The position numbers and the translations under genes were made by a program. A stretch of 64,000 nucleotides of DNA from Streptomyces exfoliatus (GTDB lineage: Bacteria > Actinomycetota > Actinomycetes > Streptomycetales > Streptomycetaceae), in contig NZ_JNZP01000008.1 in the NCBI RefSeq assembly GCF_000725545.1, positions 1 through 64,000 of the forward strand, read 5' to 3'. Below the pieces are notes generated by a model. The model did not search any database and was not told the origin of the DNA. It saw nothing but the letters and a program-made list of their open reading frames with translations. This document shows positions 49,349 through 64,000 of the stretch, piece after piece (the stretch's first letter is position 1; each line of letters starts with the position of its first letter).

Positions 49349-50089
49349 ATGAACAGGCCCGTCCTCCTCGTGATCGCCCACGGCAGCCGCGACCCGCGGC
49401 ACGCGGCGACCGTCCAGGCGCTGGTGCGCCGGGCCGGTGCGCTGCGGCCGGGGCTGCGCGTGGAGACGGCGTTCCTGGACTTCAACCTGCCGTCGGTGAC
49501 GGGGGTCCTCGACCGGCTCGCCGCCGAGGGGGTGCGGGACGTGGTGGCGCTGCCGCTGCTGCTCACCCGGGCCTTCCACGCGAAGGCCGACGTCCCCGCC
49601 GTCCTGCGGCAGGCCCCTCCCTCGCTGCGGATCCGGCAGGCGGAGGTCCTGGGGCCCTCGCCGCTGCTGGTCGCGGCGGTGGAACGACGGCTGTACGAGG
49701 CCGGGCTCACGCCCGGCGACAAGAGCACGACCGGGGTCGTCCTGGCCTCGGCGGGCTCCACCGACCCGGAGGCGATCGCGGTGATCGCAGAAACGGCGCG
49801 GGAGCTGCGGCGCACCGGTTGGTGCTCCGTGCGGCCCGCGTTCGCCTCCGCATCCCTTCCCAGGACCGAGGACGCGGTCCGCGCCCTGCGCGCCGACGGG
49901 GTGCGCCGGGTGGCGGTCGCCCCGTACGTGATCGCCCCGGGCCGTCTTCCCGACCGCATCGCGGCGGGCGCGGCAGGGGCGGACGTCCTGGCGGACGTCC
50001 TCGGCCCGTCCCCCGAACTGGCCGCGCTGCTCGTCGAGCGGTACACCGAGGCGGCCCGCCCGCTCTCCCGCGTGGCCGCCGCCGGCTGA
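49349..50089 (+). CDS. Sirohydrochlorin chelatase family protein (CbiX/SirB)
   Basis: The 246-residue protein starts with VLLVIAHGSRDPRHAATVQA, the CbiX/SirB motif with the metal-site His (HGSRDP), and has a repeated half (GVVLASAGSTDPEAIAVIAE) of the two-domain form. It inserts iron or cobalt into sirohydrochlorin. Since sulfite reductase uses siroheme, iron insertion is the likely reaction here. It ends the sulfur operon, eight bases after ssuC. Confidence 0.88.
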   Translation: MNRPVLLVIAHGSRDPRHAATVQALVRRAGALRPGLRVETAFLDFNLPSVTGVLDRLAAEGVRDVVALPLLLTRAFHAKADVPAVLRQAPPSLRIRQAEVLGPSPLLVAAVERRLYEAGLTPGDKSTTGVVLASAGSTDPEAIAVIAETARELRRTGWCSVRPAFASASLPRTEDAVRALRADGVRRVAVAPYVIAPGRLPDRIAAGAAGADVLADVLGPSPELAALLVERYTEAARPLSRVAAAG

Positions 50090-50188
50090 TCCCCCACCTC
50101 TGGAACCGCGCCGGACGTTCCTTCGTTCTCCCTTGCAGACGTGCCCTGCGGGGTATGAGGGGTCAGACATGACGCAAGGGGGTGCGGC

Positions 50189-53100
50189 GTGTTCGGTTGG
50201 GCTCTGTTCCGGCTGTGGGCGGCGGAGCGCGGCGGGTCCGTCCCCCCGCGCGATCCGGACGATCGACAGGCCGCCTCCGACCGGATCCTGCGGCTGGCCT
50301 CGCTTCCGCCGAAGGAGCTGAACCGCACCGTCGCGGCCCTGCCCGCGGAGGGGCTCGGCCACCTCCTCGGCGATCTGACCGAGGTGGCGGAAGGGGCGGG
50401 CACGGTCTGGCGGGACCGTCCGACGGCTGCCGCTCTCGGTGACGTCCTGGCCTCGGTCTCACTCGCCGCCGAACTCCTCACCGGTGACCGTGCCCTGTCG
50501 GGGGAACTGCGTCGCGAGTCCCACGTCCTGCGGGGCGCTGCGGCCGCTCTGCAAGGCCAGGACCAGGAGGCCGTGCGGCAGTTCGACCACGGGCTCCACG
50601 CGCTGACGGTGGACGAGGCTCCTCTCGCCCGCACCCTGGGGACGGTCGGCCGACTCGTGTCCGCGTGGGACGGCACGGACGCGGACTCCTTGCGCCGCGC
50701 GGTGGCGGCGGAGCTCGGCCCGCCGACCGGACCGGAGTCCGGGGAGCGACGGGACGCAGTCCGTCGCTCCCTGGATGTTCGTCTCTCGGCCTACGGGACG
50801 GTGTCCCGCGCCTGGGCGGCGGACGGTCCGGAGGCCTCGGCGGCGCTGCTGACGGAGTGGCTGCGCGGCCACGACCGTGACGAGGCGGCGGAGTTGAGAT
50901 GGGTGTCCGCCCGGCGCCTGATCGACGCGGCCGCTGACCCGGAGGCCGCCGCCGCACGGGCCCGGCTGCTCGACGCCGCCTTCGGGGTGCACGGCGAGAC
51001 GACCCTCTTCCAGGACGTGCTGGCGCGGTTCTACCAGGCACACGACCTGCCGCACGCCGTGGTCACGGTCCTGAAGCCCTGGAACGCCGCACATCCGGGC
51101 GACAGGGACGTGGCCCTCCAGCTCGCGGAGGCGTACCGGCGGGTGGGCGCCCCCGAGGAGGGCGTCGCGGTGCTCCGGCCGCACGTCTCGGACCCGCCCG
51201 TGCCGGGCGAGGAGCGCCTCGCGCACCTCTTCGTCGTCCTGCTCGCGGCGGCGGATGCACCCGAGGCCCCGGAGTGGGCCGAGCGTTTCGCGCGTCTCCT
51301 GAACGAGGAGGAGATCGCCTCGCTGTTCCCGAGCGCGGCGCGCGGACCCGCTCCGCTCGCCGCCCACTTCGCCGACGGCAGGCTGACCGTCGATCCCACG
51401 GCCGCCGCGGCCCTGCCACCGGGTCAGCTTCAGGCCCATCTCACCGCGGCGCTGATCGCGGGCAGCCCCGAAGGGGCGGAGATGTTCCGTACGCTCGCGG
51501 CCGACTCACCCGTCCTCGCGGCGCAGGTGGCGGACCTCCTCGGGATCCGGCGGCAGCCGCCGCCGGAGGGGGCGCACAGCGAGGCGGACGAGCTCTTCCA
51601 CCGCGGCGAAGGCCATTTCGGGCGGCGCGAGTTCGAGCAGGCGATCACCTGCTACGTCGGCGCCTTACGGCTGAACCCTGACCACGTCACAGCTCTCCTC
51701 TGCCTCGGCGACGCGTACTACGTCCAGGACAGGTTCGCGGTGGCGCGGGCCTACTTCGAGGAGTCGCTCGCCGTCGAGGAGACGCCGATGGCCTGGCGTT
51801 TCCTCGGTGACGTGTTGAGGGAGACGTCGGCCCCGACCGCGGACGTCCGCGCCTGCTACGAGCGCGCGCTCGCGCTCGACCCCGGGTACGGAGGCGCCCG
51901 GCAGGCACTCGCCGCGCTCCCTCCGCCGGAGGAGTACGACGACGGTGAAGCGGTCGCGGATCCAGCGGCACCGGAGCGGACGTCTCTGCCACGGCGCGTC
52001 TGGCGCAGGCTGCGGCGTCCGGCCGCGCCTGCGGCGCCCGCTCCCGCTCCCGCTCCCGCTCCCGGCGACGGTGCCGACGTGCCGGACTCCGTCGAGGAGG
52101 AGCTGACCCGGCTGTCGCCCGCGGGGATCCGGCACCGCCTGCCGGAGCACCTCGAAGCCGTGCTCCGCGCACGCGAGCCCTGGACGGCGGAGCTCCTCGA
52201 CGCGCTGCCGGACGACGACGCGTTCGCACGCTGGCAGGAACGGTGGCTGCCCGAACGGCTCGCGTCCGCGCTCACGGCGCTCCGCGTGCTCTCCTGGCAG
52301 TGGAACGCCAAGGCGGGCGACACCGGGCGCGCGCTCCTCATGGCCGAACGTAAGCTGGAGCTCGTGACCGGCCTCCCGTCCCAGTGGGGCGACGGCGCAC
52401 CCGAGTTCGCCGGCCGCGCCCTGCTCATCAGCGACGCCCTGCAGGCGAAAGCGGCGTACCTCACCGACTTCGGGCAGTACGCCGAGGCGTACGCGGTGCT
52501 GCGCGACGCCGAGGTCTGGCTGGAGAAGGACCGGGAGGAGCGCGAGCTGGCCGGCAGGCCGATGACCGGTCTTCCGGGCGCGCACGTGCTGCGGGAGAAC
52601 CCCCGCGCCGACCTGTACGGGATGCTCGCCGCCGCGGCCGAGCGCTGCGGGGACATCGAGGCCGCCGGGCGCTACGACGGACTGTCGGACCGATGGCGCG
52701 AGGGGGCTCCGCACTCCGACCACGACCGGATAGTGGCCATGTGCGCACAAGCCCTCATCTCGCTCGGGGAGGGCGATCCGGACACATGCTTCCGCCTGCT
52801 CGACGAGGCTCTGCCGCTCGCCGAGCGGGAGGCGGGCTGGAGTCCGGTCGAGCACGCGTTGGCCCTGGTCCACCACACCCGCGCGCGGGCCCTGGCCGTG
52901 CTCGGTCCGCAGCGCGGCGCGCTGCGCCACGCGGCCCTGGCCCGCCGGCACAACGCGGGGAACTCGGACCGACTGGCGACCGACTGGCTGGTGACCGCCG
53001 AGATCCTCGGCGCCCGTCCGGAGCTCGGGGACCCCCTGGAGGCGTACGAGCACGTCCTCCAGCTGTCCGGTGTGCCCGCGGAGTCCGTCGGTCCCCTCGT

Positions 53101-54766
53101 GTGGCATCCGCGCCACGGTGCCGGGCAGCCGGTACGGATCGAGAACGCCGAGCGGGTCTGGCAGGTCGTCGCCCCCATGGCCAGGGCCGCCTGGACGGCC
53201 GATGAACCGGAGACCGCGATCCGGGTCCTCGAACTGGGCGTCGAACTCTCCGATCTCGTACGGGCCGCGCAGCCCGACCCCGCCCTGCGGCGGCACCTCC
53301 AGGAGGAACGCGCCGAGGTGTACGAACTCCTCGTCCAGTACCACCTGGACGGCGCCGCCGGAGCCGAGAGGCGGGACGGGCCCGAGGGCCCCGAGGGGAG
53401 CGACGGGCCGGCCGAGGTCGGGGCCGCCTTCGCCGCAGCGGAACGGCTGCGCTCCCGCACGCTCCTCGACACGCTCAGTACGGCGGAGCTGAGAGCTCCG
53501 GACGGCGTGCCGGCGGCTCTGATCTACCGTGAGTCGGGACTCCTCCGCGAGCGTACGGCGCTGGAACGGGCCCCGCGCACGGACTGGACGCGGCTCCGGA
53601 CCGTCCGCCGGGAGCTGGACGCGCTGTGGTCGGAGATGGCCTCGCACCACGTGTCGGGCGCGGAGTACGCCGCCGTGCGTTCCGCCGCGGCCGTCACGGC
53701 CGACGCCGCCCTCGCGCGGCTGCGCGGGGAGCAGGTGGTGGTGGCCTCGTACGCCCGCCTGGGCGACGGCCGGCTCGTCCTCTTCCTGCTCGACCCCCGG
53801 ACCGGACTCGCCGTGACGCCGATCGACGCGGACGGAGCCGCCCTGACCCGGTTCGTGGCGGACAACTTCGGAAGTGCCGGGCAGGTCAGGGAGATGGCCA
53901 TCGACATGCCCGGCCTCTTCCAACAGATGCTCTCGCCGCTCGTCGCCCCGCTGGCGGGCCTGACCCGGCCGGAGGACACGGTGCTGATCTGCCCGACCGG
54001 CCCCCTCCACAACGTTCCCTTCCACGCCCTGTCTCCCGACGGAGGTGCCTCCCTGATCGAGCGGAACCCGGTGGCGTACCTGCCGAGCATCTCGCTGCTC
54101 GGCACCCTCGCCCACCGGGAGCCGCGGACCGGGCGGGGAGCCGTGGTGCTCGGCGATCCCGGCGGCGACCTGCCGTACGCCCGGGAGGAGGCGCGGCTGC
54201 TCGCCGCGCGTCTGGGCACGGAGCCGCTTCTGGGCGCCGACGCGACCCGCCGGAGGGTGCTCGACGCGATGGCCGGGTCGGAGATCCTGCACGCCGCCTG
54301 CCATGCCACCTTCCGTGCGGACGACCCCTTGTCGTCGGGTCTGGCGCTCGCGGACGGGCCGCTCACCGGGCGGGACATCCTGCGGGAGGACTGGCACGGT
54401 GTGCGCCTGGCCGTCCTGTCGGCCTGCGAGACCGGGCTCGGAGGCGTCGATCGCACCGACGAGGTGTTGGGCCTGAGCCGGTCCCTCCTCTTCGCGGGCG
54501 TCCGGTCCCTCGTCATGAGTCTGTGGCGGGTCCCGGACCGCTCCACGGCCGACATCATGGGGGCGTTCCACGAGCTGACCCTGTCGGGCGCGACTCCGGC
54601 GGGCGCGCTGCGCGCGGCCGTGCTGGCCTCGCGCGACCGGCCCGGCGGGGACCGCCTCGACCGCTGGGCCGCCTTCTGTCTGCTGGGCGAGTGGCGGGCG
54701 GACCGGACCTCCGGCGGCCGGGCGGCCGACACCCTGGGATCTTCGAGTGGAAGGAGCGACGCATGA
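50189..54766 (+). CDS. Large TPR-CHAT protein (caspase-like protease fold)
   Basis: The 1525-residue protein has a helical N-terminal region, TPR repeats at about 470-580 (REFEQAITCYVGALRLNPDH, then FAVARAYFEESLAVEE), an Ala/Pro linker near 615, a second helical region and a C-terminal CHAT domain from about 1200. The catalytic His is in LHAACHATF (about 1370) and the Cys in LSACETGLGG (about 1412), followed by GVRSLVMSLWRVPD. CHAT domains are caspase-like proteases. GTG 50189 follows AAGGGGG. It is translationally coupled to an unknown protein (ATGA). Proteolytic control of that partner is plausible but inferred. Confidence 0.9.
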   Translation: MFGWALFRLWAAERGGSVPPRDPDDRQAASDRILRLASLPPKELNRTVAALPAEGLGHLLGDLTEVAEGAGTVWRDRPTAAALGDVLASVSLAAELLTGDRALSGELRRESHVLRGAAAALQGQDQEAVRQFDHGLHALTVDEAPLARTLGTVGRLVSAWDGTDADSLRRAVAAELGPPTGPESGERRDAVRRSLDVRLSAYGTVSRAWAADGPEASAALLTEWLRGHDRDEAAELRWVSARRLIDAAADPEAAAARARLLDAAFGVHGETTLFQDVLARFYQAHDLPHAVVTVLKPWNAAHPGDRDVALQLAEAYRRVGAPEEGVAVLRPHVSDPPVPGEERLAHLFVVLLAAADAPEAPEWAERFARLLNEEEIASLFPSAARGPAPLAAHFADGRLTVDPTAAAALPPGQLQAHLTAALIAGSPEGAEMFRTLAADSPVLAAQVADLLGIRRQPPPEGAHSEADELFHRGEGHFGRREFEQAITCYVGALRLNPDHVTALLCLGDAYYVQDRFAVARAYFEESLAVEETPMAWRFLGDVLRETSAPTADVRACYERALALDPGYGGARQALAALPPPEEYDDGEAVADPAAPERTSLPRRVWRRLRRPAAPAAPAPAPAPAPGDGADVPDSVEEELTRLSPAGIRHRLPEHLEAVLRAREPWTAELLDALPDDDAFARWQERWLPERLASALTALRVLSWQWNAKAGDTGRALLMAERKLELVTGLPSQWGDGAPEFAGRALLISDALQAKAAYLTDFGQYAEAYAVLRDAEVWLEKDREERELAGRPMTGLPGAHVLRENPRADLYGMLAAAAERCGDIEAAGRYDGLSDRWREGAPHSDHDRIVAMCAQALISLGEGDPDTCFRLLDEALPLAEREAGWSPVEHALALVHHTRARALAVLGPQRGALRHAALARRHNAGNSDRLATDWLVTAEILGARPELGDPLEAYEHVLQLSGVPAESVGPLVWHPRHGAGQPVRIENAERVWQVVAPMARAAWTADEPETAIRVLELGVELSDLVRAAQPDPALRRHLQEERAEVYELLVQYHLDGAAGAERRDGPEGPEGSDGPAEVGAAFAAAERLRSRTLLDTLSTAELRAPDGVPAALIYRESGLLRERTALERAPRTDWTRLRTVRRELDALWSEMASHHVSGAEYAAVRSAAAVTADAALARLRGEQVVVASYARLGDGRLVLFLLDPRTGLAVTPIDADGAALTRFVADNFGSAGQVREMAIDMPGLFQQMLSPLVAPLAGLTRPEDTVLICPTGPLHNVPFHALSPDGGASLIERNPVAYLPSISLLGTLAHREPRTGRGAVVLGDPGGDLPYAREEARLLAARLGTEPLLGADATRRRVLDAMAGSEILHAACHATFRADDPLSSGLALADGPLTGRDILREDWHGVRLAVLSACETGLGGVDRTDEVLGLSRSLLFAGVRSLVMSLWRVPDRSTADIMGAFHELTLSGATPAGALRAAVLASRDRPGGDRLDRWAAFCLLGEWRADRTSGGRAADTLGSSSGRSDA

Positions 54767-55458
54767 CGGAGACGCTGGACCTCTCCCCCCGGCTTCCGGA
54801 GGGATACCGGCTGGTGGGGCTGGTCGAGCCGACCGTGGAGGAGGACGAGGCCGACCGGGCCTTCACCACGGTCGACGAGACGACGGTGCGGCTTCTGCGC
54901 CGCGAGACGCGGATCGGACTCGCCCGGGGCACGGTCACCCCGGTGGACACGGGCGAGCCCGGGCTCCAGGGATACGACATCCCGCTGATCCTGGTGGTGC
55001 AGACGCATCCCGAGTCCACGGTCGCCTGGTCCCGTCTGGTCCTCGATCTGTCGCCCAGCCCTGGCGCGACCGTCGCGGCCATGTCGCCCACCCTGGTGGA
55101 GGGCGACACGCCCCAGGAGATCGAGACGACGCTGGGGGCGAACCTCACGTTCAGCGTGGCGGGGACGCCGTTGGGCCTGGAGGCCGGTCCCGAGGTGTTG
55201 CGGCGGCGTACCGTCTACTGTCCGCGCATCACGTCGTCCGGGGTCGGATTCACCAGCGCCTACTGGGACTTCAGGGCTTCCGATCGCGCGTTCCTGCACG
55301 TCAACGAGGAGCTGCGGCTGCTCGTCCGGGCCCCGGAAGGGCAGCCCGTCGACGCCGTCGTGACCCTGCGCACCCGCGTCCTGCCCAGGGGGCTCGGGCG
55401 GTTCCTGCGCCTGTCGGGCAAGATCGCCGGCATCGACGGCAGCTGTCGCCTCGTGTGA
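54763..55458 (+). CDS. Unknown beta-rich protein coupled to the CHAT protein
   Basis: The 231-residue protein starts with ATG overlapping the CHAT gene's stop (ATGA). Predicted strands dominate (IPLILVVQTHPESTVAWSRL, VLDLSPSPGATVAAMSPTLV, ITSSGVGFTSAYWDF). The first 60 residues are acidic and likely linear (EPTVEEDEADRAFTTVDETT). No signal peptide, membrane segment or known motif is seen. It may be a substrate or regulator of the CHAT protein. I do not recognise the family. Confidence 0.82.
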   Translation: MTETLDLSPRLPEGYRLVGLVEPTVEEDEADRAFTTVDETTVRLLRRETRIGLARGTVTPVDTGEPGLQGYDIPLILVVQTHPESTVAWSRLVLDLSPSPGATVAAMSPTLVEGDTPQEIETTLGANLTFSVAGTPLGLEAGPEVLRRRTVYCPRITSSGVGFTSAYWDFRASDRAFLHVNEELRLLVRAPEGQPVDAVVTLRTRVLPRGLGRFLRLSGKIAGIDGSCRLV

Positions 55459-55488
55459 CCCCGGTTCCCGCGGCAGCTCGCGGGGGCG

Positions 55489-56118
55489 TCAGCCGAAGTC
55501 GAGGCTTCCGGTGCGGGTTCGCTTGAGTTCGAAGAAGTCGGGGTGGGCGGCCAGGACGCGGAAGCCGTCGAAGAGTTCGGCGGCCTTCTCGTCGCGCGGG
55601 ATCGCGCGCAGGACCGGGCCGAACCAGACGGTGCCGTCGACGTGGATCGTGGGGGTGCCGACGTACGCCCCGGTGTCGGGTTCCTTGCCGGCGTCGTGGT
55701 GGCGGCGGACGTCCTCGTCGTACCCGGGGTCGTGGGCGGCCTTCGCGAGTGCGGCGGGGAGGCCGAGTTCGGCGAGGGACTCCTCGACGACGGCGTCGAG
55801 GTCGTCGCGCTTCTGCTCGTGGATGCGGGTGCCGTACGCGGTGTAGAGCGGGCGGAGGATCTCCTCGCCGTGCTGTGCGGCGGCGGCCGCCGCGACCCGG
55901 ACGGGTCCGATCGAGGCGTCGACCAGTGCGCGGTACCAGTCGGGCAGGGTGTTGCCCTCGTTGTGCAGGTACAGGCTCATGACCTTGAAGCGGAGGTCGA
56001 TGTCCCGGTGCCGTTCGACCTCCAGGATCCAGCGGGAGGTGATCCAGGCGAAGGGGCAGGCCGGGTCGAAGAAGAAGTCGACGGTGGGACGGGACGGGGT
56101 CTCGGTGGTGGTCGTCAT
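55489..56118 (-). CDS. DsbA-like thioredoxin-fold protein (mycothiol-linked nitroreductase type)
   Basis: The 209-residue protein has a thioredoxin fold start, [20 protein letters not shown], with the site C-P-F-A (one Cys, no C-x-x-C), then [14 protein letters not shown] with the cis-Pro loop. The architecture matches actinobacterial mycothiol-dependent DsbA-like proteins such as Rv2466c relatives. Loss of the second Cys means single-Cys chemistry with a thiol such as mycothiol. ATG 56118 is preferred over the upstream in-frame extension, which lacks conserved residues. Its neighbours give no pathway. Confidence 0.82.
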
Positions 56119-61833: not shown

Positions 61834-63117
61834 TCAGGAGACGGGTCGGGAGTCGAGCCAGACGGATTCGAACTCCTCCCGGTATGTCTGGAAAAGTCCG
61901 TGATCGCCGTCATGGCTGCCCTGACCGTGCCGCACCACGTTCCGCCCGCCGCCGCGCAGCACGAGGACGGGGGCCTCCATGCCCCGGGCCCGGCGCAGGT
62001 AGGACTGGACGACGCCGACCCCGTCCGGTCCGTCACCGTCCACCAGGTAGGCGGTGAAGCGGGGGGTCTCGTCGAAGACGTGGATCTGGAAGGCGCCCGG
62101 GTCGCGGAGCTTGGAGCGGACCCGGCGCATGTGCAGGATGTTCATCTCGACGGAGCGGCTCAGCTCGCCCTTCCGGAGGCCGAGTTCCCGCTCGCGGCGC
62201 TTGACCGCGCTGCTCGCCGGGTTGAGGAACAGGAGCCGGGTCCTGCAGCCGGACTCGGCGAGCCGGACCATGCGCCGGCCGGAGAAGTTCTGCACGAGCA
62301 GATTGAGACCTATGCCGGTGGCGTCGAGGCGGCGCGCGCCGCCGAAGAGGTCCTCGGCGGGCAGCTGTCGCTGGAGCCGCACCCGGTCGGGATGGACGGA
62401 GACCACGTCCGCGTACCGGTCGCCGACGAGGTCCTCGACCGCGTCCACGGGCAGCCGGTCGGCGGACGGCACCCCGGCGCCGCTGCCGAGGATCTCCAGG
62501 ATGCGGGCGGAGGCCCGCTCGGACTGGGCGAGCACGGTCAGCGAGAGGGCCCGGTTGCGGGAGACCACGTTCCGCGTGACCTCCAGTTCGTCGAGGGCGA
62601 GCTCGACCTCGCGCCGGTCGTCGAAGTAGGGCTCGAAGCAGGGCCAGTGCTGGACCATCAGCTCCCGTAGCTGCGGGAGGGTGAGGAAACTCAGCACGTT
62701 GTCGTCGGCCGGGTCGAGGAGGTAGCCCTTGCGGCGCGACACCTCGCGCACGGCGACGGCTCGCTGCACCCACTCCTGGCCCGCCGGGCCGGCCGCGGCC
62801 ACCACCCACTCCTCGCCGTGCACCGGTTCGTACACGGGCCGCAGGACGGCGGCGACCACGGCGCGGAGCCGCTGTTCGACGAGGTTCAGCCAGATGTAGG
62901 CCCGCCCGGCGCGCTGGGCGCGGGTGCGGACCTCGCTCCAGGCCTCGGCACCCCAGTCGAGCTCGGCCCCGATCTCCACAGGGCGGGCGACGGTGACCGT
63001 GCCCGGCGGCACGGCGCCCGGCGGGGCGACCGCGCCGGGCGGCGCCTCGGCGGAGTCCGCCGGGCCCCCCTCACGGCCCGCATCCCCTGGGGGCAGCTCC
63101 AGACCTCCCGAGCTCAC
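61834..63117 (-). CDS. SAV2148-family HEPN-domain protein with PLD-like C-terminus
   Basis: The 427-residue protein resembles the Streptomyces SAV2148 family. The N-terminal half has a HEPN-like helical region with DELEVTRNVVSRNRALS, where the usual RN-x3-H motif reads RNVVSRN, so the catalytic His is replaced. The C-terminal half (RTRLLFLNPASSAVKRRERE, then ELSRSVEMNILHMRRVRSKL and IHVFDETPRFTAYLVDGDG) looks like a PLD-like or DUF5919 domain. The GTG start 63117 is uncertain; AGGAG lies about 22 bases upstream. Both domains are often found in RNA or phage-defence proteins, but the role here is not known. Confidence 0.78.
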   Translation of the reverse strand: MSSGGLELPPGDAGREGGPADSAEAPPGAVAPPGAVPPGTVTVARPVEIGAELDWGAEAWSEVRTRAQRAGRAYIWLNLVEQRLRAVVAAVLRPVYEPVHGEEWVVAAAGPAGQEWVQRAVAVREVSRRKGYLLDPADDNVLSFLTLPQLRELMVQHWPCFEPYFDDRREVELALDELEVTRNVVSRNRALSLTVLAQSERASARILEILGSGAGVPSADRLPVDAVEDLVGDRYADVVSVHPDRVRLQRQLPAEDLFGGARRLDATGIGLNLLVQNFSGRRMVRLAESGCRTRLLFLNPASSAVKRRERELGLRKGELSRSVEMNILHMRRVRSKLRDPGAFQIHVFDETPRFTAYLVDGDGPDGVGVVQSYLRRARGMEAPVLVLRGGGRNVVRHGQGSHDGDHGLFQTYREEFESVWLDSRPVS

Positions 63118-63227
63118 CCGCGCACCGCCTTCTGCTCCTGGACGCCCGTGTCGACCGGTCCGACAACGATCAAGGAAGGGTACTCCGCGAGCGGGAGGCG
63201 GTGCAGCAGGATCGTCAGGCTGCTTGC

Positions 63228-64000
63228 TCAACTGCCCAGATCGGGCTGCCCGTTCTGGGAGGCGAGATCGGGCGGAGTGAGCGGATTCATAGCGGTTACG
63301 TCCCTGGGCGCGAGCTGGAAGCCCTGCCAGTGGACCGGCATGGGCTGCTGGTCCTCGTCCCGGGCGATGTGGTGGAACCCGATGTTGACCCACACCGAAG
63401 GCTTGGTCAGGGTCTCGCCGTTGACCCACTTGTCCACGCTGTCACCGGCGTTGGGGGCGCAGTCGCCGATGTTGTTGCTGGCGAACTTCTCGCAGGCGCG
63501 GGCCTGGGTGAAGTACACGTCGTGCTTGGTGAAGCCGCGCCCGGCGTGGGTGTCGGTGTGGCCGGGGGCGATCTCGTACGAGCGGGCGTGGCCGTCGGCG
63601 TTCTTGCCGGTGCCGCTGACCACCCGCCACCAGCGCATGTTCTTCGCGTCTCCGGCGAGTTCCTTGGTGACGACGGTGCGCTTGGTCTTCACGGTCGGTC
63701 CGCCGCCGTTGGCGGGCGGCGCGGTGACGGTGGAGTCGAACTGCTCGATCCGGTCCTTGGTGGAGCCGTCGAGGCCGAAGTCGAGCTTCCAGAAGACGTT
63801 GTGGGCGTGGCTGGTGGCGTAGGCGCGGGCGCCCTTGCCGATGGGCCAGCCGCGGCCGTCGGTGGCGTTGTAGTCGACGGGCGAGAGGCTGCCGGTGGCT
63901 CCGACGTTGGCGCCTATGGTGCCGTCGGCGGAGAACCGCCACTCGGTGATGTACTCGTACCAGCCGACCTTGTTGACGGTGTAGACGAGCAGGTCCTTGC
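63228..64000 (-). CDS. Copper amine oxidase, C-terminal part
   Basis: The window holds the last 256 codons; the start lies beyond 64000. The C-terminal motif WVNIGFHHIARDEDQQPMPV and the H-x-H copper ligands in TSHAHNVFWKLDFGLD match copper amine oxidases. Just before it, near 63957, the cofactor region reads VNKVGWYEYITEWRFSADGT, where Y is the expected topaquinone precursor but the usual preceding Asn is Trp. The enzyme would oxidise primary amines to aldehydes with H2O2. The signal peptide, if any, is outside the window. Confidence 0.9.
   Translation of the reverse strand, partial: KDLLVYTVNKVGWYEYITEWRFSADGTIGANVGATGSLSPVDYNATDGRGWPIGKGARAYATSHAHNVFWKLDFGLDGSTKDRIEQFDSTVTAPPANGGGPTVKTKRTVVTKELAGDAKNMRWWRVVSGTGKNADGHARSYEIAPGHTDTHAGRGFTKHDVYFTQARACEKFASNNIGDCAPNAGDSVDKWVNGETLTKPSVWVNIGFHHIARDEDQQPMPVHWQGFQLAPRDVTAMNPLTPPDLASQNGQPDLGS

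Follow-up and report, generated by a model that had tools for sequence, protein, structure and literature searches.

The locus and its two genes

A 64,000-nucleotide stretch of the Streptomyces exfoliatus genome (NCBI RefSeq assembly GCF_000725545.1, contig NZ_JNZP01000008.1, positions 1 to 64,000; here called the window) carries two adjoining genes, one for a long protein with tetratricopeptide repeats (TPRs) and a CHAT protease domain and one for a short protein, its partner, which we predict to be a pore former with a haemolysin-type fold. Inspection of the open reading frames (ORFs) gave a GTG start for the first gene and an ATG start for the second; an ATGA at 54763-54766 forms their overlap, and an AAGGAG-like ribosome site of its own precedes the partner gene. 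The coordinates (Table 1), the product lengths, and the overlap all agree with a first-pass annotation that a model had made from the sequence of this DNA, and Pfam likewise recovered the TPR and CHAT content read there in the 1525-residue product, the CHAT domain (PF12770) scoring 197.5 bits (cut-off 24). The CHAT profile also matched the PDB sequence of Csx29 (E 6e-13), whose H585 and C627 correspond to His1372 and Cys1413 of the window's protein, and EAD1 was absent from the Pfam scan of the pair.

The 231-residue partner had been described as belonging to no known family, and so it appears: its Pfam scan gave zero domains, NCBIfam nothing over the curated cut-off, and PADLOC nothing. The source genome holds a single CHAT match and a single copy of the partner, and Streptomyces griseoluteus NRRL ISP-5360 encodes an identical partner on one of its contigs.

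Conservation of the pair

Scanning 295 Streptomyces genomes with the window's partner (E <= 0.001) gave matches in 10, one of them a 28-residue fragment (G046), which left nine full-length partners including the window's own; a tenth came from another genus of the same taxonomic family (L103). In all ten of these family A loci, which were found by searching with the partner, the partner gene shares its strand with a CHAT gene and lies directly 3' of it, at a spacing of -17 to +83 nucleotides (nt) in the nine relatives. At L020 the contig end falls inside the CHAT gene. At L018:10267-11295 the CHAT frame ahead of the partner is open for 343 amino acids (aa) only; an interruption of the TPR part is possible, and with it a broken copy. 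Partner identities and CHAT-domain identities co-vary, with a Mantel r of 0.98 over the ten family A pairs and 0.96 over nine pairs of the sister family described below, both values uncorrected for shared species descent. Short or spurious partner matches were left out before counting (G046, L012/L021; G661, L023/L064; G075, L089; G704, L104; G692, L105), and G618, met twice (L099, L140), was entered once. A class-wide scan of 394 genomes with a profile of close partners (A1) returned the window, one spurious fragment, and nothing more, and no relative of the window's partner was found in viral contigs, plasmids, PHROGs, or PADLOC. The partner is a true conserved family whose pairing with CHAT goes beyond chance.

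When run on the same Streptomyces genomes, profile A1 also revealed a second family, B, which is divergent from the first. Two profiles led back to the window's partner, A2 (four B members) at E 1.6e-7 and A4 at E 5.4e-8; a family scan with profile A3, in which 11 of 124 candidates were scored, did not report it. Family B has 19 full-length members, 18 of which adjoin a CHAT or EAD1-CHAT-type gene, the one without a CHAT neighbour being L086. A long CHAT gene adjoins 11 of them (L065, L066, L067, L087, L088, L098, L099, L101, L102, L145, L147), with the partner convergent to it in L066 and L102. For the other seven the neighbour is an EAD1-CHAT gene or a related one: Pfam places both domains in L068, L082, L083, and L146; at L100, where the gene runs off its contig, it reports CHAT alone, and at L084 and L085, which we counted as EAD1-CHAT-type nonetheless, EAD1 alone. 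The family occurs in three further taxonomic families of the class, with any match in 5 of 384 genomes, one of these being the window's own weak match. At L083:3133-8520 the B partner is followed by an EAD1-CHAT gene and then by an EAD1-DEAD-helicase gene, possibly a larger conflict system.

The first-pass annotation had read a fixed stoichiometry into the gene overlap, which was not borne out. The argument is weak because spacing varies among close relatives and the window's partner has its own ribosome site, yet a 4-nt overlap recurs in seven of the eight family B loci measured.

The CHAT His/Cys pair, noted earlier as intact, is indeed present in the window, and the dyad is complete in 10 of 10 family A CHATs, 11 of 11 long family B CHATs, and five of seven EAD1-type proteins by alignment. 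Its invariance in the ten close pairs and its retention in 26 of 28 CHAT-type neighbours overall suggest that protease activity is selected for, and by domain and dyad we class the long protein as a CHAT (caspase-like, clan CD) protease. The catalytic His is lost in the EAD1-type proteins of L084 and L085, whose CHAT-like parts are possibly inactive protease versions. In both places (L084:7921-9463 and L085:8674-10225) the family B partner sits between the EAD1 protein and a gene that by eye is acyl-CoA-ligase-like.

Predicted fold of the partner

Structure prediction, which had been proposed as a check, gave a haemolysin/leukocidin-type fold twice: two AlphaFold models built on non-overlapping alignments, one of family A and one of family B, each had leukocidin/alpha-haemolysin pore formers as best match, and in both the fold spans almost the whole partner. 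All 50 fold matches listed for the window's partner were pore formers. Searches by sequence and profile (Pfam, PDB sequences) found no leukocidin similarity; for gasdermin there was no Pfam or PADLOC match, and the fold matches listed were to other families. Going by the models, we consider a haemolysin-type fold likely. The earlier statement that the locus lacks a transmembrane effector may be wrong, because a pore former is what the models predict the partner to be.

A simple hydropathy scan found a hydrophobic N-terminal signal in none of 26 partners, the highest 19-residue mean hydropathy within the first 60 residues being 1.30, from which we expect both partner and protease to be in the cytosol. 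Known leukocidin/alpha-haemolysin toxins typically carry a secretion signal. Within the possible stem-like segment of the partner, an alternating pattern at residues 117-132 reaches a moment of 2.05, which is not the protein's strongest, and the amphipathicity of the family B hairpin is weak (moments 1.05 and 0.48).

Insertion site and neighbourhood

By Pfam, the pair is flanked by two ordinary core genes, upstream by CbiX, which ends at 50089, and downstream by an Rv2466c-like nitroreductase with its stop at 55489. Four loci were checked for an empty site (L136, L137, L138, L139). The CbiX and nitroreductase genes abut in two of them, with about 50 bp (L137) and about 30 bp (L138) between matched ends where the window has 5.4 kb, which marks the 5.4-kb pair as a complete cassette. 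It consists of these two genes only and was likely acquired horizontally. At the same junction of another Streptomyces (L136:2336-3736) lies 1.4 kb of other sequence, by eye a D-Ala-D-Ala carboxypeptidase-like gene, so this spot may receive inserts repeatedly; at L139 the CbiX flank gene was not found.

Across nine family A loci (L103 excluded; ORFs of at least 100 aa), no third gene was common to three or more, and comparison of the neighbourhoods beyond the pair and antisense frames gave three weak pairwise matches, at 27-29% identity, among more distant genes. The absence of gasdermin and CRISPR genes recorded in the first-pass annotation held for the two proteins (Pfam, NCBIfam, PADLOC) and the ten neighbouring frames scanned: these frames contained no Cas families and no Cas7-11 gene was seen, CRISPR arrays not having been searched for. 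Near the cassette, at 61834-63429 of the window, is a gene with SAV2148-like HEPN and DUF5919 domains.

Proposed mechanism and alternatives

We propose that the product of the cassette is a haemolysin-fold pore, gated by the protease, through which the cell is killed or arrested, a predicted function to which we assign a probability of about 0.5. The TPR part would sense an infection or stress signal and switch on the CHAT protease, which would then cut the partner in its flexible N-terminal linker, with R32 as the candidate site. The cut would free a latch-like N-terminal strand and leave a pore-competent form, whose stem-like segment would insert into the cell's own membrane as the pore assembles, and the cell would die or arrest. 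The purpose is conjectural: probably defence against phage through abortive infection, or else the death of cells during development. The cleavage-gated element is modelled on bacterial gasdermins: according to PMC9612521 and PMC9729208, the gene for the pore former adjoins that of a caspase-like protease, and the cut falls close to one end of the pore former, about 20 residues from it. A protease with its substrate, regulator, or effector, as in gasdermin pairs, was what the first-pass annotation had suggested; the conserved adjacency, the tracking divergence, the cassette with its empty site, and the haemolysin-type predicted fold all back the idea of a protease with its effector or substrate, whereas the stoichiometry part of that suggestion is not borne out.

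The choice of R32 has points for and against it. R32 lies in an acidic linker (residues 26-37 have a predicted local distance difference test score, pLDDT, below 50) within an ExxR-like motif. Excerpts of PMC9729208 give ExxR as the motif cut by separase, with the P1 Arg held by an acidic residue, D2151, equivalent to K670 of Csx29. The residue aligned with K670 is Ala1454 in the window and is acidic in one of ten CHATs, and with this Arg pocket missing, R32 as the cleavage site is a guess. Family B partners lack an invariant N-terminal Arg like R32, and two of them are paired with the CHAT-like proteins that have no catalytic His.

Alternatively, the partner could be a soluble beta-sandwich regulator, an inhibitor or securin-like chaperone that keeps CHAT inactive while the real targets lie elsewhere in the cell. 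We consider this unlikely: the listed fold matches of the window's partner are pore formers without exception, and the pair moves as a self-contained unit, leaving no obvious other effector. More doubtful still, the partner could act in signalling, as a substrate that is cleaved in the manner of Csx30 of Craspase and yields a fragment acting on another protein and not on the membrane; PMC9729208 describes a TPR-CHAT protease whose neighbouring substrate complexes RpoE. However, the loci share no third gene, the 1525-residue protein scores 50.5 bits with the NCBIfam Csx29 model against a cut-off of 300, and the predicted fold is that of a pore former. We give the lowest credence to a haemolysin-fold pore former that works uncut and that CHAT either controls by binding or removes, which would suit alpha-haemolysin-type proteins, as these generally need no proteolysis, and would fit both the missing Arg pocket and the pairings without a catalytic His, but which sits poorly with the sign of selection for protease activity in the conserved dyad.

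Relation to known systems

If the protease-gated pore is correct, the system would work like a gasdermin pair and yet, by the predicted fold of its partner, would not be one; what is new would be a different pore former. As in bacterial gasdermin systems, a small pore-former-like gene adjoins a caspase-like/CHAT protease gene (10/10 loci), and here both products lack export signals, the pore status of the partner being predicted. Unlike those systems, the window's partner has a predicted haemolysin/leukocidin-type fold and a candidate cut near its N-terminus, whereas the end that is cut in bacterial gasdermins is the C-terminal one. With the leukocidin/alpha-haemolysin superfamily the partner shares a fold predicted over nearly its full length in two models, but it shows neither sequence similarity nor a signal peptide, and its gene is paired with that of a protease. 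Type III-E Csx29/Csx30 resembles the window in its TPR-CHAT protein with aligned His and Cys; it differs in that the Csx29 model scores far below cut-off, no Cas7-11 is found among the neighbours, and the partner is unrelated by search. The EAD1 conflict systems (Kaur et al. 2020, PMC7159879) are approached through sister family B, which adjoins EAD1-CHAT genes and once an EAD1-helicase gene, whereas EAD1 is missing from the window's CHAT protein, which has TPRs.

The main texts of two EAD papers (PMC7159879, PMC8195603) contain 0 occurrences of "hemolysin" and "leukocidin". Among the papers listed by searches of open-access full texts, a collection without most subscription papers and all preprints, we recognised none that describes a CHAT protease with a haemolysin-fold partner, and the searches found no text joining "CHAT protease" with Streptomyces or "CHAT domain" with Streptomyces and pore.

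Pores gated by proteases recur in immunity all the way from bacteria to humans, and gasdermin is the known case on the bacterial side. If our reading of this small and self-contained pair is true, unrelated pores have been wired to proteases on more than one occasion, and the haemolysin fold, familiar mainly from toxins that bacteria secrete against other cells, doubles as an internal suicide effector. The effectors of EAD-type conflict systems would then include one kind more, and the question would arise of whether the leukocidin fold has had a parallel or an ancestral role. A broader proposal, which we hold tentatively and rate somewhat short of an even chance, is that actinobacteria have a second form of pyroptosis, independent of gasdermin, in which CHAT proteases activate intracellular haemolysin-fold pore formers; these would travel as two-gene cassettes and would also be built into EAD1 immune networks.

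Table 1. Features of the cassette, in positions of the window
Feature	Position	Strand	Basis
Two-gene cassette, likely horizontally acquired insert	50090..55488	.	Between CbiX and Rv2466c-like nitroreductase; abutting flanks in L137, L138
TPR-CHAT cysteine protease gene, 1525 aa	50189..54766	+	ORF and Pfam
TPR repeats, residues ~466-541, possible sensor part	51584..51811	+	Pfam TPR families; sensor role inferred
CHAT domain, residues 1243-1500	53915..54688	+	PF12770, E 4.3e-58
Predicted catalytic His1372	54302..54304	+	Invariant in 10/10 family A CHATs; aligns with Csx29 H585
Predicted catalytic Cys1413	54425..54427	+	Invariant in 10/10 family A CHATs; aligns with Csx29 C627
Partner gene, 231 aa, predicted haemolysin/leukocidin-type fold, without signal peptide	54763..55458	+	AlphaFold model; hydropathy scan
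Partner Arg32 codon, candidate cleavage site in flexible linker	54856..54858	+	Invariant 10/10; E at P4 7/10; pLDDT<50
Partner residues 115-157, possible membrane-inserting (stem-like) segment	55105..55233	+	Low-confidence model stretch; alternating pattern 117-132

Other CHAT genes and their neighbours

Comparing the neighbourhoods of CHAT homologues, a check that had also been proposed, gave a divided answer: close homologues carry the partner in 10 of 10 loci, which the search with the partner itself had found, but Streptomyces CHAT genes in general seldom have it. There were 205 CHAT matches in 77 of 101 Streptomyces genomes, and a partner of either family directly follows at least 7 of the 205 (G000, G012, G014, G015, G053, G054, G079), so the partner is rare among them. 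In a tree of 46 CHAT domains, family A and family B CHATs separate with 100/100 support. Six CHATs that have different neighbours (L035, L036, L039, L041, L042, L047) group among those of family A at an unresolved fork, which makes partner exchange or loss possible there. At L035, L039, L041, and L047, these window-related CHATs have a different short partner (~170-200 aa), whose frame overlaps or adjoins the CHAT stop, and the one at L039 has no Pfam match.

Other sampled CHAT genes precede different genes, including caspase genes and genes for short unknown proteins. At L058:2315-3754, CHAT is followed by a 480-aa protein without a Pfam match, which we ruled out as a member of the partner family on finding no profile match and whose C-terminal part, by eye, presumably resembles a class III nucleotide cyclase. 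At L045, a caspase gene (Pfam Peptidase_C14) begins within a few bases 3' of CHAT, L048 and L049 look alike by eye, and the CHAT and caspase pair at these three loci is possibly a protease cascade.
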